Shown here one piece after another: positions 1,675-34,277 of a DNA stretch of 36,256 nt. The stretch spans positions 1-36,256 of the IMG/VR virus record IMGVR_UViG_3300042289_001789. One strand, given 5' to 3'. Positions within the stretch are counted from its first letter, which is position 1. Each line of letters starts with the position of its first letter. The notes under the pieces are model-generated. The model was not told the DNA's origin and searched no databases. It worked only from the letters and a program-made list of their open reading frames with translations. Origin of the DNA: a virus. The position numbers and the translations under genes were made by a program.

Positions 1675-2811
1675 ATGATTAGTCAACTAAAAAAAAATAA
1701 AATTGTTGAGGTAATCAATCTCACTGAAGATTTGGAAATACTCAAACATCATCTAAAAAATGTTTATAAAGACCTTTATCACATAATCATAACAACACCA
1801 AATAGTTTTTCAGAAATTAATAGATTAAAAAAAATTTGCTCTGAATGGATAGATAAAATTACGATTATTGAAACGGACAATAACGACACTTGGCTATCAG
1901 TAAACTCCCAAAGTTTATTTGATATTTTTTCTGAGTTATTATTGGATTTTGAAGATATAATTTGTTTTTCCGAAGCATCAGAAGTCCCAGATTTTCGAAT
2001 TTTTGAAAAGGTTTCTGAACACTTAAAGTTTGAACCTGTTATTTTAAGAATGACAGATTTTGTTTTTAACACCAAAATTTATTGTAAAAATAGACACATG
2101 GGTAGTATTTGTGTTTCATATTCAAATTTACTTAAAAACAATAATCTTGTTACAGAAATTCGTCAGGTCAAGAAAAATATAATTGGAGATAGTTTTTATG
2201 TTGTTGATAATGGAAACAATTTTAGTTTTTTCTTAGAAAAATCCAAAATTTTAGATTACTTCCACACAAAAAACTTAGATGTTGATGAAAATGAATTTGA
2301 TAATTGTATCTCAAATAACTTCCACCCCAATTTCTTCGAAAATAAGAAAAAAAGTTATTTCACAGATTATGAAGGAGATATATCTTTCGACGTCTCAAAT
2401 CTCAAAGAATTCTTTTTTCATGAAAATACTGAAAAAAAGATTTTAATTATTTTGAACGTATATCAAAAAAAAGTACTTAGTGAGTGGTGCGAACCATATC
2501 AAAGAGTTTTAAATTTCAATTTTACTGAAGATTATAGATTTTCAGAATTGTCTTTGGAAAATAACTTGGAGACCTACAATATTTTTTTACCAAAGTACCA
2601 ACTTTATCAACGGAATAATTTGGAGGACTTTTGGATTACATATAAAGTGAATGAACTCAAAAGATTATTGAAAAACTCAAATTTAATGAATAATCGACTT
2701 GTAGATTTGATTGTTTTCAAAGATGATATTGAATCCGAATCAAAAATGACATTTTCTTTTGAAGAATTGAAAAAATTTTCTTTTGAGAACGTTTTTACTG
2801 AAATCTTTTGA
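1675..2811 (+). CDS. Possible GT17-like glycosyltransferase, 378 aa
   Basis: Not recognised with certainty. The N-terminal half reads like a nucleotide-sugar transferase: an early beta strand and helix (YHIIITTPNSF), then TWLSVNSQSLFD, then DFEDIICFSEASEVPDFRIF (residues about 92-111). In family GT17 the corresponding place reads like DDIIIISDVDEIP, an acidic D-x-D that binds the metal-nucleotide. Here the first Asp pair is replaced by S-E-A-S-E, so if it is a GT17 relative the metal site is altered. The C-terminal half is charged, rich in Asn, Phe and Lys, and unlike anything I know. No signal peptide is visible. The gene is very AT-rich even for this window. Its 3' end overlaps the next convergent gene by 17 nt. 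Confidence 0.6.
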   Translation: MISQLKKNKIVEVINLTEDLEILKHHLKNVYKDLYHIIITTPNSFSEINRLKKICSEWIDKITIIETDNNDTWLSVNSQSLFDIFSELLLDFEDIICFSEASEVPDFRIFEKVSEHLKFEPVILRMTDFVFNTKIYCKNRHMGSICVSYSNLLKNNNLVTEIRQVKKNIIGDSFYVVDNGNNFSFFLEKSKILDYFHTKNLDVDENEFDNCISNNFHPNFFENKKKSYFTDYEGDISFDVSNLKEFFFHENTEKKILIILNVYQKKVLSEWCEPYQRVLNFNFTEDYRFSELSLENNLETYNIFLPKYQLYQRNNLEDFWITYKVNELKRLLKNSNLMNNRLVDLIVFKDDIESESKMTFSFEELKKFSFENVFTEIF

Positions 2812-4297
2812 ACCTCTCGAACATTTCAAGAATTTTACCTTGCTGTTTTTCTAGCTTTTCTTTCACATCTTCATTCAAGTGTGCAAATTCATCTTCACCT
2901 GTATGTGCGGTTATTTCTTCCCAAGACTTGTCTTCAGGATTGAACTTTGTAAGGTCTAAATTAAGTTCGTTAGGTTCCAAATCTTCCTCCCAATAAACAT
3001 CTTCATCTTCTGACTCATAACCTTCTTCACTTAATTGTTCTCCACCCCAGCTATGAGTTTGGTATGGACCTGCTTTACCAGGACCCGTGCTAACGAACGC
3101 GTATGGTTTTTCTGCCGCCCCATATATTCCTTGTACACCAGAAACATCTTGTTCATCTACTTCTTCAGTCCATGCTGATTCCATTTTTTCCCAACATTCT
3201 TCACACTCACCCTCTTCGTTCATCGGATACGCATCTCCTCCATTATCAGGTCCACCTGACATGAAGTCATAAGCTTTCCAAGACTGTTTTTCATCCAAAT
3301 CCATATCATCTGCTGGTTCTGTGTAAGTATCCTCAATTGGACCATCCGTTTCAAAATCAAAAGCTGGGTCAATATCGGCCTCAAAATCTGGAGAATTTCC
3401 ACCGCCAGTGTAACTGCCTTCATTCACATCTTTTTGTCTTAGAGTTCCACCATCCCCGACAGGTCCATTGGATTTAAAATCATAAGGAGGTTCAATTTCG
3501 TTGTAATGTTTTCCATATGACAAAGGAGCATTTGATGTTGCAGTTTCCTCGTTTTTTATATCTTTCATATGGTGCATTTTTTCAAAAGTACCGTAATCAT
3601 TTCCACCACCTTCTACATAATCGAAATCGTCTGATGGATTTAAATCTTCCTGATGATAAATGTCAGATAATTTGCCTGTTTTATATTCCTTGATGTCCAG
3701 TTTTTTTAACATGGATTTATCCAAATAGAAATCGAGTTCTTGGGCTTTCCTCTTAAAAGCATTAATTATTCTATCTTTATAAACGTCTAAAAGGTCATCA
3801 TTAGTGTCCAAAATATTTTCGAACATTTTCAAAGTACTTTTGAGTTGCTCTTCGTTTTTTGAACCTTTGATTGATGATATAATTTTATCAACCGCTTCCG
3901 CCGTGTAAGGTTTTTTAGAGTCTTTTTGTTTACCATAGACAAATTCCTTAGCTTTCTTAACCCCTTTTTTTATAACCTTTTCTATATCAACTTTTTCGTT
4001 CATTTGTCCACCCCAACCACATTCAGAACATTCACCTTCATTCATCGTTCCTCCACATTGTTCACAAGTATCCATAACATGTGACTCATTGATTCTATAA
4101 TCAGTATAAGGTTTTACAGTACCATCATTTGTGATAGTTGCACCCAACTTATCTTTTGCAAAGTCTTGAACATAAAGGGGTTGTGTGTTATTAACTTTTG
4201 GTTGCATTGTTTGGTAACCATTATAAACCTCTTTGTGTTTGGATAAGATATTTTCTTTCTCCTCATTTGACATTTGTCCTAAACTCCAATACTGCAT
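2795..4297 (-). CDS. Acidic repeat protein with zinc ribbon, probable head-associated protein
   Basis: A 500-aa, strongly acidic protein. The N-terminus (SNEEKENILSKHKEVYNGY) looks like the charged helical leaders on other probable virion proteins here. Residues about 78-93 hold a zinc-ribbon pattern, CEQCGG then CSECGW. The C-terminal half carries four copies of a Y/F-x-F-x-S/T-x-G-P motif (YDFKSNGP, FDFETDGP, YDFMSGGP, YAFVSTGP), each in an acidic, Gly-rich linker. It is studded with x-N-E followed by G, K or E (for example TMNEGE, QMNEKV, DVNEGS, PMNEEG), resembling sites of T4-type prohead proteases (I/L-x-E before A/G). A TATTTATA element lies 13 nt before the start. Role as a scaffold or internal head protein is inference; family not recognised. 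Confidence 0.75.
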   Translation of the reverse strand: MQYWSLGQMSNEEKENILSKHKEVYNGYQTMQPKVNNTQPLYVQDFAKDKLGATITNDGTVKPYTDYRINESHVMDTCEQCGGTMNEGECSECGWGGQMNEKVDIEKVIKKGVKKAKEFVYGKQKDSKKPYTAEAVDKIISSIKGSKNEEQLKSTLKMFENILDTNDDLLDVYKDRIINAFKRKAQELDFYLDKSMLKKLDIKEYKTGKLSDIYHQEDLNPSDDFDYVEGGGNDYGTFEKMHHMKDIKNEETATSNAPLSYGKHYNEIEPPYDFKSNGPVGDGGTLRQKDVNEGSYTGGGNSPDFEADIDPAFDFETDGPIEDTYTEPADDMDLDEKQSWKAYDFMSGGPDNGGDAYPMNEEGECEECWEKMESAWTEEVDEQDVSGVQGIYGAAEKPYAFVSTGPGKAGPYQTHSWGGEQLSEEGYESEDEDVYWEEDLEPNELNLDLTKFNPEDKSWEEITAHTGEDEFAHLNEDVKEKLEKQQGKILEMFERFKRFQ

Positions 4298-4310
4298 AGT
4301 AATTTTTCTT

Positions 4311-4318
4311 TATAAATA
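4311..4318 (-). promoter_or_regulatory. TATTTATA late-type element
   Basis: On the minus strand this reads CTATTTATAAAG, 13 nt before the ATG at 4297. It belongs to the TATTTAT set found upstream of many probable virion genes in this window. Confidence 0.5.
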
Positions 4319-4375
4319 GTTTAATTTTTACATTTGAGTTGACTTTGGCGTTTTAAAACGATAGAATTAATTAGA

Positions 4376-4448
4376 CAAGTGAACCTCTCAATTTTTGATA
4401 GTATCTTGGTAATTTACTATTCGCCAAAAATTTTTATGAGTTCACTTG
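4376..4448 (+). other. Three-tier nested hairpin followed by a T run
   Basis: Three inverted-repeat pairs nest perfectly: CAAGTGAAC (4376-4384) with GTTCACTTG (4440-4448), AATTTTTG (4390-4397) with CAAAAATT (4425-4432), and ATAGTA (4398-4403) with TACTAT (4415-4420). The outer stem is followed at once by eight T residues. It lies in the 200-nt gap between the acidic protein gene and the small-gene/thyA operon, on the side of the operon. It could be an unusually large terminator, a small RNA, or a structured leader. Nothing else is obvious in the gap. Confidence 0.55.
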
Positions 4449-4497
4449 TTTTTTTTATGCTCTTTTTTTCTTAAATTTACAATACAAAAACAAACAA

Positions 4498-4713
4498 ATG
4501 CACACACTAGTATTCAACACAACCGAAAAAACAGTTAAGGTACTTGATGGACCTGTTGGTGACTCAAAAATTATTTCCAACTTCGGGTCTGTACCGACCG
4601 TAAAAGTAGATGATAGAGGTTATTATGAAGTTTTACAGGAACTACCTGAAGTTGGTAGATTACCTGTTGCAAGACTTCCAATTGCAAACACCGTAATGTT
4701 TATTGAAAAATGA
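4498..4713 (+). CDS. Hypothetical small protein, 71 aa
   Basis: Not recognised. It starts at an ATG after an A-rich leader (ACAAAAACAAACAA) typical of Bacteroidota translation starts, about 20 nt downstream of a TAAATTTA that weakly resembles the host -7 element. The sequence is beta-rich (HTLVFNTTEKTVKVLDGPVG, YYEVLQEL, RLPIANTVMFIEK). No export signal. It is the first gene of a tightly overlapping four-gene run ending with thymidylate synthase: its stop overlaps the next ATG (ATGA). Small phage genes in front of thyA are common and usually of unknown function. Confidence 0.7.
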   Translation: MHTLVFNTTEKTVKVLDGPVGDSKIISNFGSVPTVKVDDRGYYEVLQELPEVGRLPVARLPIANTVMFIEK

Positions 4714-6884: not shown

Positions 6885-7505
6885 ATGAATTTTTTAATCA
6901 CCGAAGGGCAACTAAAAATTTTGATGAACGAGGGATACAAAAGTTTTTTTGCGGAAAACATGAGAATTCTAAACGCGTTCACCAATAGTTTGATTAATAA
7001 GGTAAAAAGAAAATTTGCATTAAATTTAAAGTTACTTTCAACTTGGGGAACCTCTGTGGGTGGTTTGGTGTTACCTTTGGATGAATATATAAGAACTAAT
7101 GAGTTCAAAGTTGATGAAAATCAGGCAGCTCTCATATTATTAGGTGTTGTATCAATCATATATTTCGACAATAAATCTTTATTTGAAAAGATATATTCCA
7201 AAATAAAAGAAGAAGGATTAGAACAAATTTTTCTGAAAGTTTATACGAAAGGTCTAAAATTAAGAGAAGCTTTCTTAGGTTTTTTAAATTCTCTACAACT
7301 ATCTATTACAAGTATTTCAGAACTAATAAGTTATTCTTTTTTAATTCCAATAATTCTTGATATTCAAAATTTGGTTCGGAGCTCGGGTGATTTTGAAAAG
7401 ACAGCCGAAAACATAACTGAAAGAATTGTAGCTTCAGGATTGGTTTTAGTAAGTGCCGAAATTTTGAATGAAGTACTGCGAAAAATATCAAAGAGAATTA
7501 AATAA
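6885..7505 (+). CDS. Membrane-associated protein with capsid-targeting-like N-terminus
   Basis: Start chosen at the ATG 6885, 4 nt after TATTTATT; an upstream TTG at 6879 is unlikely. The N-terminus MNFLITEGQLKILMNEG matches the I-x-x-E-x-x-x-x-x-L-x-x-E leader found on other genes here, and MNE before G looks like a T4-type prohead protease site. Downstream are hydrophobic stretches (SVGGLVLPLDEYI near 58-70, AALILLGVVSIIYF near 81-94, SELISYSFLIPIILDI near 145-160, VASGLVLVSAEIL near 183-195). A membrane-active protein packaged in the head, for example one used during DNA entry, fits but is unproven. Its 3' end overlaps the next convergent gene by 18 nt. Confidence 0.7.
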   Translation: MNFLITEGQLKILMNEGYKSFFAENMRILNAFTNSLINKVKRKFALNLKLLSTWGTSVGGLVLPLDEYIRTNEFKVDENQAALILLGVVSIIYFDNKSLFEKIYSKIKEEGLEQIFLKVYTKGLKLREAFLGFLNSLQLSITSISELISYSFLIPIILDIQNLVRSSGDFEKTAENITERIVASGLVLVSAEILNEVLRKISKRIK

Positions 7506-11068: not shown

Positions 11069-11257
11069 ATGAAAACATTAACGGGTATACTTTTGCTATC
11101 AGTGAGAGTATTTTGTATGGTAAAAATTCTAATTTGGCTTTTCCAACAAAATTACTCTACAAATCATCCAATTTCAGAAATTCAACAATATCTCGTTTAT
11201 CTCCTTTTGGATATTTGGATTGTAATTTCTTCAAAACAATTCAACGAGGAAAATTAA
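11069..11257 (+). CDS. Small membrane protein, 62 aa
   Basis: This frame fills exactly the gap between two minus-strand genes: it begins 40 nt after the start at 11029 and ends sharing 4 nt (TTAA) with the stop of the PPK2 gene, the same tail-to-tail arrangement seen at thyA. It encodes two hydrophobic segments (LTGILLLSVRVF with MVKILIWLF, and YLVYLLLDIWIVIS) separated by a polar loop. No family recognised. An overlapping frame from 11062 (TTG start) is polar and looks spurious. Confidence 0.5.
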   Translation: MKTLTGILLLSVRVFCMVKILIWLFQQNYSTNHPISEIQQYLVYLLLDIWIVISSKQFNEEN

Positions 11258-12357
11258 GGTTTCAAAACAGCTAAAACTTCTGGGTATTCTACATCCAAAA
11301 CTTTCGTATTCTTCCCTTCATAAGGAATGTTTTGTAAAACGTATCTAATTGCGTTAAGTCCTGATATTCTTTTGTCTTCAGAGTCAATTACAACCCAAGG
11401 ATTGTTTACCGTTGAGGTCTTATCAAAAAGTTTTTCTTTGAATTCAGTGAACCTATCCCAAAGGTCTTGCATTTTTGCATCGTTTGGAGAATATTTCCAA
11501 TATTTCAAAGGTGATTTCTGACGAATATCAAATCTTCTTTTTTGAGTGTCTTTATCAATTGAAAACCATAATTTGAAAAGATAGTCTCCGTCTTTAACTA
11601 AATCATTTTCAAAGTCCTCAACATTTTCCATGAAATCAGCATATTCTTCAGGCGTTCCATATCCCATAACGGGCTCAACAAGTCCTCTATTATACCAACT
11701 ACGGTCAAAAAGATTGATTACTCCTGGTCTTATTTGTTTTCTGTATCTGTTCCACCAATCTTTTCTATCTTCTGGTGTTGGTACACCCAACGCAACCACA
11801 TTATAATATCTTGGGTTCAAGTTCTCAGTGAATTTTTTGATTGTAGAACCTTTACCCGCAGAGTCTCTTCCTTCGAAAACAACTATTACAGTTTTTCCAG
11901 TTTTTTTCAACCACTCCTGTAGTTTTAGTAACTCTACCTGAAGTTCATAAAGTTCTTTTTTATAAACTTTTTTTGGTATCAAGGAAGGCTCCTCAATTTC
12001 AAAACCATAATCTTCACTTTCAGGTTCAACACCATAACCATCTCTTTCTCTATATTTGAGAGATGTTAGAATTTTACCTAAGTAATCTTCAATATTCTTT
12101 TTTTTGTCACCTTTTTTCAAAAGTACTTTTCTCAATCCTCTATTCATCAAATCAAAATCTATAATTTGATTGTTTGCGTAGTCAGAAATATCAACCAACA
12201 TTTTCTCAATTTTGCCACCGTAGATTTTCAAAAATTGTAATGTTTCAACAACAGATTTGAGATTACGATTCATCTTTGGAGCTGAAGATTCTTCATCTTG
12301 TTCGTTCAAAATCCCCATGACCGATTTTATCCTATCTATTTCTGTCAATAACCGCAT
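11254..12357 (-). CDS. ppk2: Polyphosphate kinase 2 with capsid-targeting-like N-terminus
   Basis: The C-terminal 230 residues are a PPK2 domain, which uses polyphosphate to phosphorylate nucleotides (or the reverse). Walker A is GRDSAGKG (163-170), Walker B/lid is NLFDRSWYNRG (215-225), and the RKDWWNRYRKQI and KSPLKYWKYSP segments are typical. The first 130 residues are not part of the usual enzyme: the leader MRLLTEIDRIKSVMGILNEQ resembles the capsid-targeting motif on other genes here (LNE before Q as a possible prohead cleavage site), then a charged helical region. A TATTTATT element lies 15 nt before the ATG and a host-type TATCTTTG upstream of that, so both early and late expression are possible. 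Nucleotide supply or head-packaged kinase are both open. Confidence 0.93.
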   Translation of the reverse strand: MRLLTEIDRIKSVMGILNEQDEESSAPKMNRNLKSVVETLQFLKIYGGKIEKMLVDISDYANNQIIDFDLMNRGLRKVLLKKGDKKKNIEDYLGKILTSLKYRERDGYGVEPESEDYGFEIEEPSLIPKKVYKKELYELQVELLKLQEWLKKTGKTVIVVFEGRDSAGKGSTIKKFTENLNPRYYNVVALGVPTPEDRKDWWNRYRKQIRPGVINLFDRSWYNRGLVEPVMGYGTPEEYADFMENVEDFENDLVKDGDYLFKLWFSIDKDTQKRRFDIRQKSPLKYWKYSPNDAKMQDLWDRFTEFKEKLFDKTSTVNNPWVVIDSEDKRISGLNAIRYVLQNIPYEGKNTKVLDVEYPEVLAVLKP

Positions 12358-20361: not shown

Positions 20362-20592
20362 ATGGATAAACAAAGTAATCATTGGGGAGACGTTATCATT
20401 TGGTTAGAAAAAGTTGCTAAATCTTGTCAAACCAAAGAACAGGCAGAAAATTGTGAAAGGTTAGTATGGAACTTTCACAGAAAATACCAAAAAAAACTCG
20501 GTTTGGCAGAATGTTTTGACCTCACAAAAGAGATTGATAAAATACTTTTGGAATTCAAACTCCCCGCATTTTATAAAAAACAAAAATTATGA
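20362..20592 (+). CDS. Hypothetical small protein, 76 aa
   Basis: An open frame starts at 20275, but it runs through the terminator; the ATG at 20362 (MDKQSNHWGDVIIWLEKVAK) sits correctly behind the promoter. The product is helical (CQTKEQAENCERLVWNFHRK, EIDKILLEFKLPAFYKK). No motif recognised. It is the first gene of the host-promoter cluster and its stop overlaps the next ATG (ATGA). Confidence 0.7.
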   Translation: MDKQSNHWGDVIIWLEKVAKSCQTKEQAENCERLVWNFHRKYQKKLGLAECFDLTKEIDKILLEFKLPAFYKKQKL

Positions 20593-21194
20593 AAGTAGTC
20601 TTTACTGAAAGTTTTTGGAAGTCTTTAAAAATTATGGCTAGACACCAAACTTGGTGGTATAGAACCTATGAAGTTTTTAGATATAAGCTTCCCGCATTTT
20701 TCCGTAATCTTTATTATTTCAGACGAGAATTATGGGAATTTAGAGGATGGGATTATTCATTCAATCTAACTTTGTTTGCACGTTCCCTTGAGAAAACATC
20801 CGAAGTTTTAGAAAAACATGGAAATGAGGTGGATGTGACCCGTTTAAAGAAAGTTCAGAAAATAAACCGCGTAATCGAAATAATTGGAAATATTCGAGAG
20901 AATAACTATCTATCCAAAGCCGAGCTCGAACTCGGTGAAATTATTCTCCGTAATAATTGGATGTTCACTGACGAGGACGAAAATCCTGAAATTATCGCAC
21001 ACAATAAAAAAATTTACGATAGAGCGGATGTACTTGAAGAACTTGAGTGGAACGAATTATTTAACATTTTAAAGGGTCAAAATTTTGATGAGTATAAAAC
21101 CTTAATGGATAAAAAAAGTCCCGAAGAAAAGAATAAAATGAACGTCTGGAACGATTGGTATGACGGGTCAGGTATTCGTAACTGGTGGGATTAA
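20589..21194 (+). CDS. Trp-rich hypothetical phage protein, 201 aa
   Basis: I recognise the general pattern but not the function: an N-terminal Trp-, Tyr- and Arg-rich block (MARHQTWWYRTYEVFRY, FFRNLYYFRRELWEFRGWDY, LFARSLEKTSEVLE) is common in hypothetical proteins of large phages. The rest is helical and acidic (ENPEIIAHNKKIYDRADVLE, ending NDWYDGSGIRNWWD). No membrane segment despite the aromatic content. The gene overlaps the upstream one by 4 nt and is followed by a small membrane protein gene. Confidence 0.7.
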   Translation: MKVVFTESFWKSLKIMARHQTWWYRTYEVFRYKLPAFFRNLYYFRRELWEFRGWDYSFNLTLFARSLEKTSEVLEKHGNEVDVTRLKKVQKINRVIEIIGNIRENNYLSKAELELGEIILRNNWMFTDEDENPEIIAHNKKIYDRADVLEELEWNELFNILKGQNFDEYKTLMDKKSPEEKNKMNVWNDWYDGSGIRNWWD

Positions 21195-23021: not shown

Positions 23022-23057
23022 AAAATGGGACTTTTACTCTTGAGTCCCATTTTTTAT
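23020..23057. terminator. Bidirectional intrinsic terminator
   Basis: AAAAAATGGGACT and AGTCCCATTTTTT flank a 10-nt loop, between convergent genes ending at 23021 and 23034. The stem serves both strands; the minus gene ends inside it. Confidence 0.85.
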
Positions 23058-23243
23058 TAAGTCTTTCATCGTTTTTTTCTTATCTTTTGGGTGAGTGTAA
23101 CCCCTCTTATATTTGTACTCAACTTCAATAGGCCCATTTGGAAACTTTTTTTTGTTGTATTTCCAAATAGAAATAGTTTCCTCATCTTCGAAGGTTATTT
23201 CCCATTTATCAGGTCTTGGTTGTGGTGCTTTTTCGAATGGCAT
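23034..23243 (-). CDS. Small conserved phage protein, 69 aa
   Basis: Not assigned a function. It reads PDKWEITFEDEETISIWKYN, NGPIEVEYKYKRG, HPKDKKKTMKDL: a small beta-rich domain I have seen in phage hypothetical proteins (pattern W-x-I-x-F-x-D-E-E-T). Upstream on the minus strand TAAATTTG (23256-23263) resembles the host -7 box, 12 nt before the ATG, although no good -33 is visible. Its last codons lie in the terminator hairpin. Confidence 0.65.
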   Translation of the reverse strand: MPFEKAPQPRPDKWEITFEDEETISIWKYNKKKFPNGPIEVEYKYKRGYTHPKDKKKTMKDLIKNGTQE

Positions 23244-23295: not shown

Positions 23296-24168
23296 TTAAA
23301 TGTTTGTGCTATAATTGCCAATTAAGGTTAGTGGTTTCGGATTTTGTAAGGCGTCAAGTAATGCACTTTCAATTTTACTTGTAGGGAATTTATAATGTAT
23401 TCTAATCAAATTGATACCATTTTTTTCACAAAATTCATTTTTAATTCTATCGTTTTCTTTGGTAGTTTCAAATTTCGTACCTCCAAATTTTTCGCTTGGT
23501 CTGAAATGTTGTTCTCCATCATATTCAATGATGGTGTTTTTATCGGGTATGTAGAAATCAAAACGTAGAGGTTGACAATATCTTCCTACTTTAGTGTTTG
23601 TACAATTCTCAAAGGTCTTTTCCCTGAAATCACATTTTCTTGATTCCAAACAACTTTCATCAATAAAATTATTGTCTACGAGGATTTTTGCCACCAGCTT
23701 TTCACCACTAGATTCAGTTTCAGGAATAAAGTGAGCGGTTATCTTATCATAAAACTCTTTTCCTCTTTTGAGTGCGGCATTAAAATGTAAAAATGAATTT
23801 TTTTTAAATTCTGAGGTTGTCTTGTATTGATTAGCCTCTTTTTCTAGTTCCGAGTCAGTGTACTTTCGTTTGGATTCTAAATAATCAAATCTACATCCTT
23901 GTCCCTCCAAGTGTTTAGAAGGGATTATTTCAAAATATTCATTACCTGTTCTATCAATCCATTCATCTCTGTGTTTTGGACAGATAACTTTGACCTTAGT
24001 TCCTGAATCAACGTAATCCACTAATGAGTAATCGTATTTTGGATTACCGTTTTCACTATGGACTGTCTGAGCTCTTTTAATAAACTCGTCTTGTGATAGT
24101 TTATTCGAACCACCCTTTTGTTCATTAATCAACATTGAGAACTGAGACTCCGTGAGAATTATTTTCAT
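23296..24168 (-). CDS. DUF723 plus PD-(D/E)XK-like endonuclease with capsid-targeting-like N-terminus
   Basis: The ATG at 24168 (MKIILTESQFSMLINEQKGG) lies 4 nt after TATTTATT; a TTG two codons upstream is rejected. The leader matches the shared I-x-x-E-x-Q motif with INE before Q as a possible prohead cleavage site. Residues 27-95 form a DUF723-type zinc-binding domain (RAQTVHSE, YDYSLVDYV, VKVICPKHR, HLEGQGC). Residues 150-285 are a Vsr/DUF559-like nuclease: SSGEKLVAKIL (E156), LRFDFYIP (D204), IIEYDGEQHF (E215, D217, Q220), NGINLIRIHY. Such nucleases are usually free-standing homing enzymes. A packaging leader on one is unusual and suggests a nuclease injected with the genome. Confidence 0.88.
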   Translation of the reverse strand: MKIILTESQFSMLINEQKGGSNKLSQDEFIKRAQTVHSENGNPKYDYSLVDYVDSGTKVKVICPKHRDEWIDRTGNEYFEIIPSKHLEGQGCRFDYLESKRKYTDSELEKEANQYKTTSEFKKNSFLHFNAALKRGKEFYDKITAHFIPETESSGEKLVAKILVDNNFIDESCLESRKCDFREKTFENCTNTKVGRYCQPLRFDFYIPDKNTIIEYDGEQHFRPSEKFGGTKFETTKENDRIKNEFCEKNGINLIRIHYKFPTSKIESALLDALQNPKPLTLIGNYSTNI

Positions 24169-24172
24169 TAAC

Positions 24173-24180
24173 AATAAATA
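24173..24180 (-). promoter_or_regulatory. TATTTATT element before the nuclease gene
   Basis: GTATTTATTGTTAATG on the minus strand: 4 nt between the element and the ATG. Confidence 0.55.
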
Positions 24181-24228: not shown

Positions 24229-24480
24229 TTACTCTTCAGTAGAGTCGCCTTTTGTTTTGTTAATCCATTTGTCTACGGAACCAATTCCAAAAGAACCTAA
24301 AACTAACCACATAAATGCATTAAAAATGAATTCGTTGATTACTAGGTCTTTCCCTAATGAACCTGTAACAATGTCTGCAATTGCAAACCCTGTCATCATA
24401 ATAAAAGCTAAAAAGCCTACAACAGATTTTTCGTTGATTGAATTGTTATCGTTAAACAACTGTGCAAAGAATTTTTTCAT
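24229..24480 (-). CDS. Small two-helix membrane protein, holin candidate, 83 aa
   Basis: The ATG at 24480 (MKKFFAQLFNDNNSINEKSV) is preferred over a TTG at 24504 that lies within the promoter region. Two hydrophobic segments, VVGFLAFIMMTGFAIADIV (about 20-38) and FIFNAFMWLVLGSFGIGSVD (about 50-69), and a short charged C-terminus (KWINKTKGDSTEE), are the layout of class II holins. A TATTTATT element is 22 nt upstream, the same class used by the endolysin. Class II holins are too variable in sequence for certainty. It could also be a generic virion membrane protein. Confidence 0.65.
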   Translation of the reverse strand: MKKFFAQLFNDNNSINEKSVVGFLAFIMMTGFAIADIVTGSLGKDLVINEFIFNAFMWLVLGSFGIGSVDKWINKTKGDSTEE

Positions 24481-24534: not shown

Positions 24535-27204
24535 TTAAAATGGTGGATTTGCTGGTGGTGTAAATGGTTTTACACTTGTTTGTGTTACACCATTATTATT
24601 TGTTACAGTTTGTGTTCCTGAACTATCAGTTGTCACCACAGCTCCCAACATTAAGTATTTGGTGTTTGCCAACGATGTAAGAGGTCCTCTTGGTGTTGAT
24701 TGAGTTGTTAGATTTGAATTATACACCGCAGTTCCAATTGTCATTCTCATATTAGTCCAATAACCTGGCCAATATCCACCATAGTATCTACCAATAGTGT
24801 CAGTTGCAGTGATATAATTAAGTGTATCAAGAGAAGTTGCAGTACATCTTACTCCATCAATATAAACCGCAGTTGTTCCGTCAGCATTTCTATTATAGAT
24901 TAAATAATGCCACTGATTTGCAGTAATGGTTGAACCCATTGTATAACTAAATGAACCTCCACCACCATTTCTGTCCGAAGTTATTGTTGTACCATTCGCA
25001 AAATATAAATTCAAACATCCTGTAGGACTAGTAACAGGAGAACCTACTATTCCCACATTATTAAAGAGACCATTATTATAAAACCATCCCTCCAATGTGA
25101 ATGTTCCCGCTCCGAAAGTTACACCAGGACTAATTCCTAATGATTGGTTACTACCATTGAATAGTAAACTACCCGCTAATGTTGTATATGGTGTAGGACT
25201 CGGAGTTTGTGTTAATGTTGGTGTAGGTGTTGGTGTTGATGAAGTCCTTGTAGGTGTTGGTGTTAATGTTGGTGTCGGTGTTGTCGTCTCCGTATTGGTT
25301 GGTGTTAATGTTGGTGTAACTGATGGTGTTTGAGTATTAGTCACACTTGGCGTTGGTGTATTTGTACTGGTTTCTGTTGGCGTTGGGGTAACTCCTACAT
25401 TAATTTCTGCACTGATATAAACAGGTAATCCAACGGTCCAATTTGTCGTTGCTGATTGGATTAAAACTGCGTTTCCTGACGGAGTGCCCAAAGGAGGAAC
25501 ACCTACTTGAGTACCAAACACAAATCCATCACCTGCCACACCTGGAGGTTCTCCTGTATTACCTGACCAATATTTGAATGCACTTGTATCACCAGAGTAA
25601 ATCGCGGTACTTCCTGTTTGAGTCATTGTAATTGTAATACTTTGACCTGTAAATTGTGAGAAATAACTTGTTCTATCTATACCGTCAGAATCAATTGAAT
25701 TGAAGTATATTCCTCTGCCATTTATAGTCAATTCATTAGGGTTGGTAGTTCCTGTTTGGACAGCACCTTGGTTCATAATTGTATTACCTGTAGCTGGGAA
25801 GTTGTAAGGTAATACTATTAAATTAAATGAATATCCTGTTACTGGTATTGGACTTGTTGATGGTGTTGGCGTTAATGTTGGTGTAACTGATGGTGTTCCA
25901 GTATTAGTTACACTTGGTGTTGGCGTACTTGTAGTTGTTGGTGTAGGTGTTACTAAAGTTGCCTCACATGCAGCACAGTTAACATAGAAAAGAAGTGGTG
26001 TTGCACCGTCTGTTGGAGTTGCCACGGTCTTCTCAACAATTCTATAACATCCACTTGGTGTTCCTCCTGTGAATGTAAAGTTAAATACGTCACCAGGTGC
26101 TAATGATGATGGTCCTAAATCAGCAACTAATACGTTCAAGTTGGTACATCCCGAAATTGTGAATGTTGTAACTGAAGTTAAGTCAGTTGTAGTTGGTGTT
26201 GGTGTGTTCGTTGGTGTTTCACTTGGTGTAGGAGTACTTGTCGTTGTTGGAGTTGACGTTACTGGTAATGTTCCTGTTGGTGTTGGTGTTACTGAAACAT
26301 ATGAATTCCAAAAACCATTGGTTGTTAACCATGTACTTGCATCGGTTGCCGATGAAAATGTTTGAGGTATACCATAAGCACTTGATACTGATTGAGACAA
26401 ATTAATAAATTCACTATCTGAAAATCCACTTGTCCCATAAAATCCAACGGATGCGGTTATATCTCCTAAAAATGTAAATCCTGCCGGTACCGAATAAATT
26501 GGTTGTGGTAATAAAGTAACTTGACCTTGAATATTTACAGGGAAAGGTGTAATTGCTGGATACAAATTATTTAATCCTGCCGAATTAACACTTCCAGTTC
26601 CCGATGATGGGTCTTCATTTCTAGTTCCATTCCAGTTTCCACCATTAACCCTAATCCACCATATACCGGTATTCAAATCTAAGGCAATATCAACAACATC
26701 ATTCACACTTCCCCATGTTGGTAAACCTGAGTCTTGTACCGTTCCAGCATGAAGATAATCCCCGTCGCTGCTGAACCCAATACTTTTTGCATCAAATCCA
26801 CCAACATAGGAATTTAAGTCCATATCTTGTAAACCAAACCCAATTTGTCCTGTGACTAATTGATTTACCCTTAGGCTATACATCACCTTATTAGGTGAGG
26901 TTATAAGTCTTGTTCCCAAAACAGAACTTTGTATTTGACCTGATGTTGCGACAGTATTTCCACTTGATAAAACAATACCTGTTCCGGCATAGTTGGGGTC
27001 CCAAGTTAAAGAAAGTGGTGTAGGTTGAGTATCTCCTGAAACAGGAGCCGCAATAACATACCCTAAATCTTCGTCAGGTCCATTCCAATATTGTGGGCTA
27101 CTTGTAAATCCTGAAGTTGGAGTACCAACTGATAAATCTCCAACTTGTTCTGTACCTGGTATGGTGCTTCCTGTATTATATGCAAAGGGTCTTGTTGTTG
27201 CCAT
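24535..27204 (-). CDS. Modular tail fibre or adhesin with SPRY and LamG-like domains
   Basis: An 889-aa protein. The N-terminus (MATTRPFAYNTGSTIPGTEQ, then GDLSVG) is the kind that attaches to a tail or baseplate and is common on Bacteroidota phage fibres. Residues about 75-235 resemble a SPRY domain (GFGLQDMDLNSYVGGFD, VVDIALDLNTGIWWIRVNGG). Three Thr/Pro linkers follow at about residues 303-340, 415-455 and 605-673, separating strand-rich domains. Residues 675-889 form a LamG/concanavalin-like lectin domain (GTFTLEGWFYNNG, WHYLIYNRNADGTTAVYIDG). No signal peptide. A TATTTATC element precedes the start by 12 nt. It is likely a receptor-binding protein. Confidence 0.85.
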   Translation of the reverse strand: MATTRPFAYNTGSTIPGTEQVGDLSVGTPTSGFTSSPQYWNGPDEDLGYVIAAPVSGDTQPTPLSLTWDPNYAGTGIVLSSGNTVATSGQIQSSVLGTRLITSPNKVMYSLRVNQLVTGQIGFGLQDMDLNSYVGGFDAKSIGFSSDGDYLHAGTVQDSGLPTWGSVNDVVDIALDLNTGIWWIRVNGGNWNGTRNEDPSSGTGSVNSAGLNNLYPAITPFPVNIQGQVTLLPQPIYSVPAGFTFLGDITASVGFYGTSGFSDSEFINLSQSVSSAYGIPQTFSSATDASTWLTTNGFWNSYVSVTPTPTGTLPVTSTPTTTSTPTPSETPTNTPTPTTTDLTSVTTFTISGCTNLNVLVADLGPSSLAPGDVFNFTFTGGTPSGCYRIVEKTVATPTDGATPLLFYVNCAACEATLVTPTPTTTSTPTPSVTNTGTPSVTPTLTPTPSTSPIPVTGYSFNLIVLPYNFPATGNTIMNQGAVQTGTTNPNELTINGRGIYFNSIDSDGIDRTSYFSQFTGQSITITMTQTGSTAIYSGDTSAFKYWSGNTGEPPGVAGDGFVFGTQVGVPPLGTPSGNAVLIQSATTNWTVGLPVYISAEINVGVTPTPTETSTNTPTPSVTNTQTPSVTPTLTPTNTETTTPTPTLTPTPTRTSSTPTPTPTLTQTPSPTPYTTLAGSLLFNGSNQSLGISPGVTFGAGTFTLEGWFYNNGLFNNVGIVGSPVTSPTGCLNLYFANGTTITSDRNGGGGSFSYTMGSTITANQWHYLIYNRNADGTTAVYIDGVRCTATSLDTLNYITATDTIGRYYGGYWPGYWTNMRMTIGTAVYNSNLTTQSTPRGPLTSLANTKYLMLGAVVTTDSSGTQTVTNNNGVTQTSVKPFTPPANPPF
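25185..25392 (-). repeat. Thr/Pro linker repeat, largest of three
   Basis: Degenerate tandem units (TPTPTLTPTPT, TPTPSVTNTQTPSVTPTLTP) coded by ACACCAACACC-like triplets. Related arrays lie near 25850-25955 and 26195-26300 and share near-identical stretches (STPTPSVTNTGTPSVTPTLT). They separate fibre domains and are candidate recombination points. Confidence 0.75.
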
Positions 27205-32339: not shown

Positions 32340-32633
32340 TTAAAACATAGGAACAATGTCAGATTTATCAACAAATTTAATTTTTTCATAAGTTTTATTG
32401 AATAAATCAACAAGACGATAAATCTCCCTCTTTTGTTCTCTATCAATTTCTTGACCATTATCTGACATCATTATAATCTCATCAATTCTTTGTTTTATTT
32501 CTTCCAAGGAATCGACAAAATCATCATTTCTACCAGGAATCGGAGGGTCAATCGGTTGAACATAGATGTCCAAGTCCATGGCTGTCTCCAAAAGTTTGAC
32601 GTATTGACTTTCTTTTATTATTATTGATGACAT
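32340..32633 (-). CDS. Protein with capsid-targeting-like N-terminus, 97 aa
   Basis: Start at the ATG 32633 (MSSIIIKESQYVKLLETAMD); a longer frame from 32693 would cross the divergent promoter. The leader IIIKESQYVKLLE matches IILTESQFSMLINE of the nuclease at 24168 (I-I-x-E-S-Q-Y/F-x-x-L-I/L). The body is helical with a Pro-rich turn (VQPIDPPIPGRND) and charged helices (DSLEEIKQRIDEIIMMSDNG, RLVDLFNKTYEKIKF). A TATTTATA element is 14 nt upstream. Probably an internal head protein. Confidence 0.65.
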   Translation of the reverse strand: MSSIIIKESQYVKLLETAMDLDIYVQPIDPPIPGRNDDFVDSLEEIKQRIDEIIMMSDNGQEIDREQKREIYRLVDLFNKTYEKIKFVDKSDIVPMF

Positions 32634-32670: not shown

Positions 32671-33066
32671 ATGGCATATTCAGAAAAAGTCATCGACCAT
32701 TATTCCAATCCGAGAAATATTGGAACTTTGGATAAATCAAAATCAAACGTTGGGACAGGATTAGTTGGTGCCCCCGAGTGTGGTGATGTTATGAGACTTC
32801 AAATTGAGGTCGACGAAGCCGGTATTATATCCGACGCTAAATTCAAGACTTTCGGTTGTGGCTCAGCAATTGCATCATCAAGTTTAGCAACTGAATGGTT
32901 GAAAGGAAAATCAATAACAGAAGCGGTAAAAATTGATAACATGACTATTGTTGAGGAATTAAACCTACCCCCTGTAAAAATTCATTGTTCAGTGCTCGCA
33001 GAAGATGCAATCAAAGCAGCAATAAACGATTACCGTAAAAAAAACGGTTTAGAAGAATTAAACTAA
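32671..33066 (+). CDS. iscU: IscU/NifU-N iron-sulfur cluster scaffold, 131 aa
   Basis: Scaffold on which Fe-S clusters are built before transfer. All three cluster cysteines are present: C37 (GAPECGDV, with D39), C63 (FGCGSAIASS) and C106 (KIHCSVLAEDA). The LPPVK motif (99-103) recognised by the HscA chaperone is intact, as is the N-terminal YSEKVIDHYSNPRNIG. The length is normal. An A-type carrier follows two genes downstream. Phage-encoded IscU is uncommon; it probably supports Fe-S enzymes during infection. Bidirectional TATTTATAAATA element 19 nt upstream. Confidence 0.95.
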   Translation: MAYSEKVIDHYSNPRNIGTLDKSKSNVGTGLVGAPECGDVMRLQIEVDEAGIISDAKFKTFGCGSAIASSSLATEWLKGKSITEAVKIDNMTIVEELNLPPVKIHCSVLAEDAIKAAINDYRKKNGLEELN

Positions 33067-33944: not shown

Positions 33945-34277
33945 ATGGTAACGGTGACAGAAAATGCTAAAACACACATTCTAAAACTGATGAACGATTC
34001 AGGTTTGGAAACTACAACGCATTTTCTTCGAGTTGGTGTAAAAGGTGGGGGATGTAGTGGACTATCTTATGTTATGGACTTTGATGATAAAAAAGATGTG
34101 ACTGACGAAGTGGTGACACTTTCTGATGACCTCAGAATTGTAATAGATAGAAAATCTTTACTATATCTTTTTGGAACTGAGCTTAACTACTCTGATGGAT
34201 TGAATGGTAAAGGATTTGAGTGGGTAAACCCAAACGCCTCAAGAACTTGTGGTTGCGGAGAGAGTTTTTCCCTCTAA
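33945..34277 (+). CDS. A-type Fe-S carrier (IscA/HesB family), 110 aa
   Basis: Delivers Fe-S clusters to apo-enzymes. The three conserved Cys are in place: C37 (KGGGCSGLSY), C102 and C104 (SRTCGCGESF). The fold pattern is typical: N-terminal VTENAKTHILKLM, GVKGGGCSGLSYVMDF, LYLFGTELNYSDGLNGKGFEWVNPNA. The gene follows the Trp-rich protein by 2 nt and overlaps the convergent gene by 4 nt. IscA, SufA and ErpA cannot be told apart here. Confidence 0.95.
   Translation: MVTVTENAKTHILKLMNDSGLETTTHFLRVGVKGGGCSGLSYVMDFDDKKDVTDEVVTLSDDLRIVIDRKSLLYLFGTELNYSDGLNGKGFEWVNPNASRTCGCGESFSL

Follow-up and report, generated by a model that had tools for sequence, protein, structure and literature searches.

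How does a nuclease built like a homing endonuclease come to carry an N-terminal leader of the kind expected on internal head proteins of phages? This question is raised by a single gene in an IMG/VR virus record (IMGVR_UViG_3300042289_001789), of which the whole stretch of 36,256 nucleotides, here called the window, was analysed; the identical nuclease gene is also found in contigs of 20.5, 55 and 26 kb, the 55 kb contig adding 12,958 bases to the left of the window. Our answer, to which we give a probability of about 0.6, is that a homing-type nuclease, composed of DUF723-like modules and a Vsr/EDxHD domain, appears to have been recruited as capsid cargo in T4-like jumbo phages and would be carried into the next host to cut foreign DNA. 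The sequence evidence for head packaging is good, and injection into the host followed by use on DNA that is not the phage's own is probable; packaging, injection, cleavage, specificity and target are all predicted properties of this protein. The gene and its parts are as follows.

23296..24168, minus strand: coding sequence of the leader-bearing Vsr-fold (EDxHD-type) nuclease, 290 residues, ATG at 24168, stop codon ending at 23296
24121..24168, minus strand: leader MKIILTESQFSMLINE, residues 1-16, with a prohead-protease cut predicted after E16 (from conservation, the model and the L/I-x-E rule)
23890..24087, minus strand: DUF723-like module, residues 28-93 (from alignment)
23725..23889, minus strand: second module, helical and presumably DNA-binding, residues 94-148 (helices from the model, function by inference)
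23383..23724, minus strand: Vsr-fold nuclease domain, residues 149-262, with E156, D204, H221 and D240 conserved (from alignment and structure match)
24174..24180, minus strand: late-type element TATTTAT, its first base 12 nt before the ATG (from sequence)

The initial annotation, which was made from the sequence alone, had described an open reading frame (ORF) with a packaging leader and a late-type element just upstream, and ORF, start, leader and element all lie where it had placed them. The protein thus described consists of leader, variable linker, DUF723-like module, helical module and Vsr-fold nuclease domain. The domain order had been read as DUF723 followed by a Vsr-like nuclease, of which the Vsr fold stands and the DUF723-like assignment holds by alignment, where this part matches DUF723-type phage nucleases column by column (H37, Y47, C63, H66 and H86 invariant, C92 near-invariant), whereas the Pfam DUF723 model gave no match reaching the window nuclease; the same model does match a leader-bearing paralogue in contig L010 (3.5e-19). 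In the DUF723-like CxxC (residues 92-95) some clade members retain the last zinc-type cysteine, and several have aspartate in its place (CRFD, CMFD, CRYD). We know of no recognition code for DUF723.

An AlphaFold2 model built with 36 sequences reached a mean predicted local distance difference test (pLDDT) score of 90.5, and with VIA-align its nuclease domain matched Vsr (1cw0; Z 12.3, 130 residues, root-mean-square deviation 3.9) and the catalytic domain of I-Bth0305I (3r3p; Z 9.9, 95 residues, root-mean-square deviation 3.0). Foldseek alone returned nothing at E <= 0.001, with Vsr in its top row at E 0.027. The putative catalytic residues D204 and H221 are invariant and E156 and D240 near-invariant in the 36 sequences, and we infer from this set how E156, D204, H221 and D240 correspond to the letters of EDxHD, a recognised homing endonuclease family (PMC3943268). 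With I-Bth0305I and other EDxHD enzymes, and with Vsr, the window nuclease shares the catalytic fold, the conserved E, D, H and D and, putatively, extra recognition modules; unlike them it has a head-type leader and a late element, and homing and a target site are putative in its case. Its sequence relatives over both modules are DUF723 phage endonucleases and those of PHROG 559 (HNH endonuclease, 5e-37) and PHROG 9084 (homing endonuclease, 4e-23), which, outside the leader-bearing rows, start directly at the DUF723-like module.

The leader is, judged by its sequence, a constrained unit of its own. In nine aligned clade members M1, I3, E7 and Q9 are invariant, and pairwise identity averages 0.52 over residues 1-16, 0.23 over the linker (residues 17-27) and 0.58 over the nuclease domain. 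The AlphaFold2 model places a helix at residues 7-17, followed by residues 18-21 with pLDDT <50 and then by the folded modules. That other proteins of the window carry the same leader, as had been claimed, is borne out by strict patterns, which find class-A leaders at three starts (6885, 24168 and 32633) and a class-B leader on the PPK2 gene (start 12357). Apart from the nuclease these are:

6885..7505, plus strand: class-A leader protein MNFLITEGQLKILMNEG..., conserved in relatives (strict pattern)
32340..32633, minus strand: class-A leader protein MSSIIIKESQYVKLLE... (strict pattern)
11254..12357, minus strand: PPK2 with class-B leader MRLLTEIDRIKSVMGILNEQ... (strict pattern, family match)

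The PPK2 match of the last of these is strong (1.9e-72), its leader ends in ILNE/Q, where the slash marks the end of the motif, and the protein has about 100 extra N-terminal residues, the best-listed phage PPK2 matches covering it only from about residue 95. It is perhaps a packaged kinase.

The lineage from which the window derives became accessible through a conserved neighbour gene (window 20589-21191), which led to relatives of 317-321 kb. A T4-type prohead protease (PF03420) scored over cut-off in seven of eight long relatives, and so did the gp23 capsid family (PF07068) in six of the eight. In one of them, G014, the gene order is terminase, portal, core-like gene, protease, acidic gp22-like gene and gp23, where terminase, portal, core and gp22 were named by appearance and position. 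A gene for ribosomal protein S21 (PF01165, 1.7e-10) lies on the strand opposite the head genes of G014, and the same S21/head-gene arrangement is found in bS21-encoding phages of freshwater Bacteroidetes of up to 331 kb (PMC9723584; Chen et al. 2022). As a fragment, the window belongs to a lineage of T4-like jumbo phages whose hosts are probably Bacteroidetes. Among the window's close contigs neither PF03420 nor PF07068 was found in 13 records, and PF07230 was found in none of 8; as all of these are fragments, absence from the genomes is not implied.

Leaders are frequent at ORF starts in this lineage. By strict patterns, which were written after leaders had been seen, 23 of the 387 ORFs of G014 open with a class A, B, C or D leader and 9 of 387 in G015; as a control, no leader begins at any of the 2774 internal methionines drawn from all contigs collected by that stage. 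The 216 kb surrounding the leader-bearing nucleases hold 29 leader ORFs (16 loci; the nucleases themselves and near-identical loci are counted), and the 962 kb surrounding 66 leaderless nuclease loci hold 5, a chance-like density. Other leader proteins were seen in G010 (L092:9014-9649 and L092:11201-12145) and G005 (L089:18435-19880). Some of the leader proteins in these two relatives resemble M23-type peptidoglycan peptidases by weak NCBIfam matches, and others there are zincin-like by eye, with HE-containing motifs and no NCBIfam match. A further leader protein of G005 (61554-62228, minus strand) consists of four repeats like the module of nuclease residues 94-148 (KYxTxxEF...TSHM) and has no nuclease domain.

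The leader ends in what resembles a protease site. In T4 the protease gp21 cleaves after L/I-x-E, and N-terminal propeptides of 10-19 residues target the internal proteins to the core (PMC9026906). The window nuclease reads ...MLINE/QKGG, INE being residues 14-16. With leader proteins selected on their opening residues alone, L/I-x-E occurs within 18 residues past the signature in 58 of 77; the set includes related proteins from related contigs, and at least one entry (window 20589, MKVVFTESFWKSL) is clearly a false positive. Over 1000 shuffles of those residues the count averaged 21.0 (sd 3.7, maximum 35), and a control stretch at residues 61-78 had the motif in 10 of 72. The residue after the motif's glutamate is Q in 27 of the 58. 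The same kind of site is present in the capsid protein of the lineage, since in gp23 of G014, G015 and G019 the letters ASSTSDTG come after ...SHLINE or ...SFLINE, right before the conserved body, gp23 of G016 reads ...QLLDE/ATR, and T4 gp23 has ...FLTE/AEIGG at the comparable site. The tetrapeptide LINE is therefore common to the lineage gp23 (LINE/A) and the nuclease leader (LINE/Q). The earlier view of the leader as a capsid-targeting propeptide gains from all of this, as it is common to otherwise unrelated late proteins, ends in L/I-x-E, occurs in a lineage with gp21 and gp23, and shares its LINE end with gp23.

The late-type element points in the same direction. In the 40 nt ahead of the ATG, 13 of the 14 leader nucleases have it, as do 17 of 92 nuclease ORFs that lack a leader; in twelve of the 13 its first base is 12 or 13 nt from the ATG. 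In G014, the 40 nt upstream contain TATTTAT or TATAAATA for 17 of the 23 leader ORFs and for 81 of the 309 ORFs that reach 100 aa, and among 5000 random 40-mers 65 contain it. The element also precedes the gp20-, gp21- and gp22-like genes and the core-like gene of G014; before its gp23 and terminase genes it was not found at the listed starts. We take TATAAATA to be T4's own late promoter, and the letters TATTTAT are presumably the reverse complement of most of the T4 late box. If the element acts as a -10 box, late messages would be almost without an untranslated leader.

Homologues with and without the leader were compared, as the initial annotation had suggested, and both kinds exist. A scan of viral contigs gave 358 stretches encoding nuclease relatives, of which 80 were kept. 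In the close clade (44-68% identity) the leader is always at the start, as MKII[LI][TK]E[SN]Q[FY]xxL[IM]xE or near it, and it is present in all 11 distinct members; the distant DUF723 nucleases (up to about 41% identity) nearly all start directly at the DUF723-like module. By pattern the leader occurs in 14 of 115 distinct viral nuclease ORFs. Eleven of these are the close-clade members and one is the second nuclease of L010, which has five modules; the remaining two, in L257 (MKQLIRHILRE) and L258 (MRELIRHIIRE), have leaders of another type. The same leader outside phages had been named as something that would refute the initial reading; in a scan of bacterial and archaeal genomes the pattern was matched by 1 of 50 distinct nuclease ORFs (L199, Eubacterium), and this one is unlike a leader in look. 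In a tree of 113 rows, 14 with leader, from which 52 of 165 distinct ORFs had been omitted for short coverage, the ten-row leader core forms one supported clade. Three leader changes are needed on this tree, but the starred branches force only one, and row L254 is probably misplaced owing to an inserted module, so that independent origins of the leader are not claimed. Among annotated phage records 660 match the window nuclease, all below 60% identity, and neither the short leader nor a neighbour gene, used as a query, found a match there. L010 has two tandem leader-bearing nucleases of the same superfamily on the plus strand (2124-3704 and 3790-4638), one of them with five DUF723-type repeats.

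The position of the gene gives a further view of its role. It lies between conserved or recognisable neighbours:

23034..23243, minus strand: conserved small neighbour gene (MPFEK...), one edge of the slot, present in relatives
24229..24480, minus strand: holin-like small gene, the other edge of the slot, named by appearance only
24535..27204, minus strand: Thr/Pro-rich tail-fibre-like gene beyond the slot, by appearance

The slot was followed through 30 records or pieces, near-identical ones counted, and the MPFEK neighbour was found in 27. In all 27 the gene next to it is nuclease-like, as classed by short motifs with an alignment check for 14 sequences. This adjoining gene belongs to the window nuclease family in five records (the window, G002 and G003, which are one phage, and G008 and G047), to a family called QxK in 21, and to a third family in one (G041). 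The window-type nuclease stands in second place, beside a QxK gene, in G004, G005, G006, G007 and G010, and the third family does so in G031. The QxK family, which is not in the window, has E282, D310, D316, Q329 and K331 invariant in 14 divergent members, a PD-(D/E)XK signature; searches of Pfam, PADLOC, NCBIfam and PDB sequences gave no convincing match, and as its structure model failed (pLDDT 42.6), the label nuclease goes by motif for this family. The third family (IIIEVAG, two records) has a weak DUF559 match (0.059). Most slot proteins start with a leader of some class (MKELIKKILKEE, MRDLIKKLLREE, MRIKITEDQ or MNIILKEQQ). The window nuclease or a relative is found in 3 of 30 further record entries, all three picked because they held it, and two of these 30 entries are also among the eight long relatives, none of which holds the window-type nuclease. 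From these figures (0 of 8 and 3 of 30 versus 27 of 27) the presence of this nuclease varies while the slot is not empty of nuclease-like genes. As part of the reading proposed here, and with the same confidence, we regard the locus as a cargo slot that would hold one or two interchangeable nuclease-like genes per phage.

T4 offers a close comparison. Its proteins IPI, IPII, IPIII and Alt have, like the proteins described here, a short N-terminal propeptide common to otherwise unrelated late proteins, and its internal proteins have an L/I-x-E cut by a gp21-type protease, a cut that is predicted here too, and hotspot loci of variable content (PMC9026906, PMC12373910); they share only the leader, sit in those variable hotspots and counter type IV restriction (PMC12373910). 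The slot described above looks like a hotspot of this sort that holds nuclease-like genes, and where the T4 internal proteins inhibit restriction enzymes and Alt modifies RNA polymerase, the cargo here is a nuclease. The window nuclease would thus work like a T4 internal head protein with the fold of a homing endonuclease, and since its leader differs in sequence and its presence in virions is predicted, we do not file it in the T4 internal protein family. Staphylococcal nuclease and EcoRI have been packaged and delivered as fusions to the T4 capsid-targeting sequence (CTS; PMC9026906, PMC3012670); these fusions combine leader and nuclease artificially, and the arrangement here is natural and known from sequence. 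Injected multidomain proteins are a wider phage theme (PMC5512222, PMC7824862, PMC13282480). PhiPA3 gp210 is also a homing-type nuclease that gives an advantage over a co-infecting phage, but it is an intron-encoded HNH enzyme for which the accessible part of its description does not report packaging (PMC11620839).

In the sequence of events that we propose, the nuclease would be made late from the TATTTAT promoter, its N-terminal 16 residues would direct it to the prohead core, and a gp21-type protease would trim the leader after L-I-N-E, so that the mature nuclease of 274 residues would be enclosed with the genome. It would enter the next host at infection and there most likely cut foreign DNA, be it the host chromosome, a prophage, a plasmid or a co-infecting relative. 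Specificity for a long site would spare the genome travelling with it; because it presumably recognises a long, rare site, it could be a safe passenger beside its own phage genome.

Several observations weigh against this proposal. The window fragment itself has no visible head genes, and gp21 and gp23 are known only from the longer relatives, which are 50-60% identical to the window in a neighbour gene and, as mentioned, have the window-type nuclease in none of eight cases. The T4 CTS (MKTYQEFIAE or MKTFKEFT) differs in sequence from the window leader. No leaders of this kind turned up in the cultured T4-like Flavobacterium phage immuto, of which 100 of 160 kb were scanned, and this makes the leader lineage-specific. 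Within the nuclease clade, L008 (MLE), L246 (FLE) and the shorter L010 nuclease (none) depart from a clean L/I-x-E, and the slot proteins of G024 and G025 have no leader at their listed starts.

Other explanations share much of the same evidence. The gene might be an ordinary free-standing homing endonuclease in a late exchange site flanking tail-fibre genes, driving gene conversion of itself and its neighbours during co-infection, with the leader as a fusion by-product of the local ORF start. Domain order and fold are indeed those of homing endonucleases, some relatives have the nuclease in the slot and others lack it, and phage nucleases cluster at genetic exchange boundaries (PMC10448857), but a by-product would hardly be kept while the linker drifts, and the late-type expression element, the leaders on unrelated nuclease-like families in the same slot and those on non-nucleases such as PPK2 make this explanation rather improbable. 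A packaged and injected homing device, which would immediately cut a co-infecting relative's empty allele and have its own gene copied in, thereby homing faster and excluding rivals, draws on the same packaging evidence as the cargo reading, on the homing-type architecture and on the patchy presence among relatives, and PhiPA3 gp210 is a homing nuclease able to exclude a co-infecting phage (PMC11620839). Its target site is putative, and against it the gene keeps its place in seven relatives in addition to the phage of the window, which suggests retention rather than spread; we consider this explanation unlikely while granting it more than the preceding one. Given the competitive use of PhiPA3 gp210 and the homing endonuclease genes at exchange boundaries, homing and rival exclusion keep a place among the possible functions.

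It is also conceivable that the leader is a lineage-specific N-terminal element of late proteins, involved in recruitment to tail or baseplate or in translation start, and that the nuclease acts where it is made, for example in late DNA processing. The packaging evidence comes from sequence rather than from virions, and some leader proteins resemble peptidoglycan peptidases and could be tail parts, but the glutamate at near-fixed distance, an L/I-x-E frequency far above the shuffles, the match to the gp23 maturation site of the same lineage, and a kinase and nuclease-like proteins that are hard to fit to tails leave little room for it. As improbable, in our view, is a packaged and injected protein that serves anti-defence in the manner of IPI-IPIII, or repair of the phage's own injected DNA. 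Those T4 internal proteins whose function is known inhibit type IV restriction (PMC12373910, PMC9026906), and Vsr itself is a repair nuclease according to the title of its structure entry; the intact catalytic residues and the homing-type recognition modules point instead to cutting at specific sites. We prefer capsid cargo that cuts foreign DNA. The initial annotation had suggested a possible route by which a homing enzyme turns into a phage weapon. This is supported in part, by the capsid-type leader and the existence of homologues with and without it; use as a weapon is one outcome among several, with homing and anti-defence as others.

Elsewhere in the window, genes at 32671-33066 and 33945-34277 (both plus strand) are by appearance IscU-like and HesB/ErpA-like iron-sulphur assembly genes.

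A literature search, which did not cover bioRxiv and most subscription journals, brought up no phage homing nuclease that naturally bears a capsid-targeting leader. A broader idea, which we put forward tentatively and at somewhat less than even odds, is that phages of this lineage maintain a dedicated late nuclease cargo slot by the tail-fibre genes, with interchangeable nucleases of at least three families, most of them fitted with leaders and injected as DNA-cutting effectors, and at least one of them derived from homing endonucleases. If this is true, the slot would be a natural parallel to the CTS-nuclease fusions engineered in T4 and would mark a route from selfish gene to injected weapon, accounting for how a homing enzyme turns into a stable phage asset. 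The virion would then deliver active nucleases as soon as infection begins, ahead of all gene expression, and a variable locus would be tied to attack on host or rival DNA. The leader together with L/I-x-E would furthermore provide a simple sequence rule by which the injected proteins of an uncultured jumbo phage lineage may be listed.
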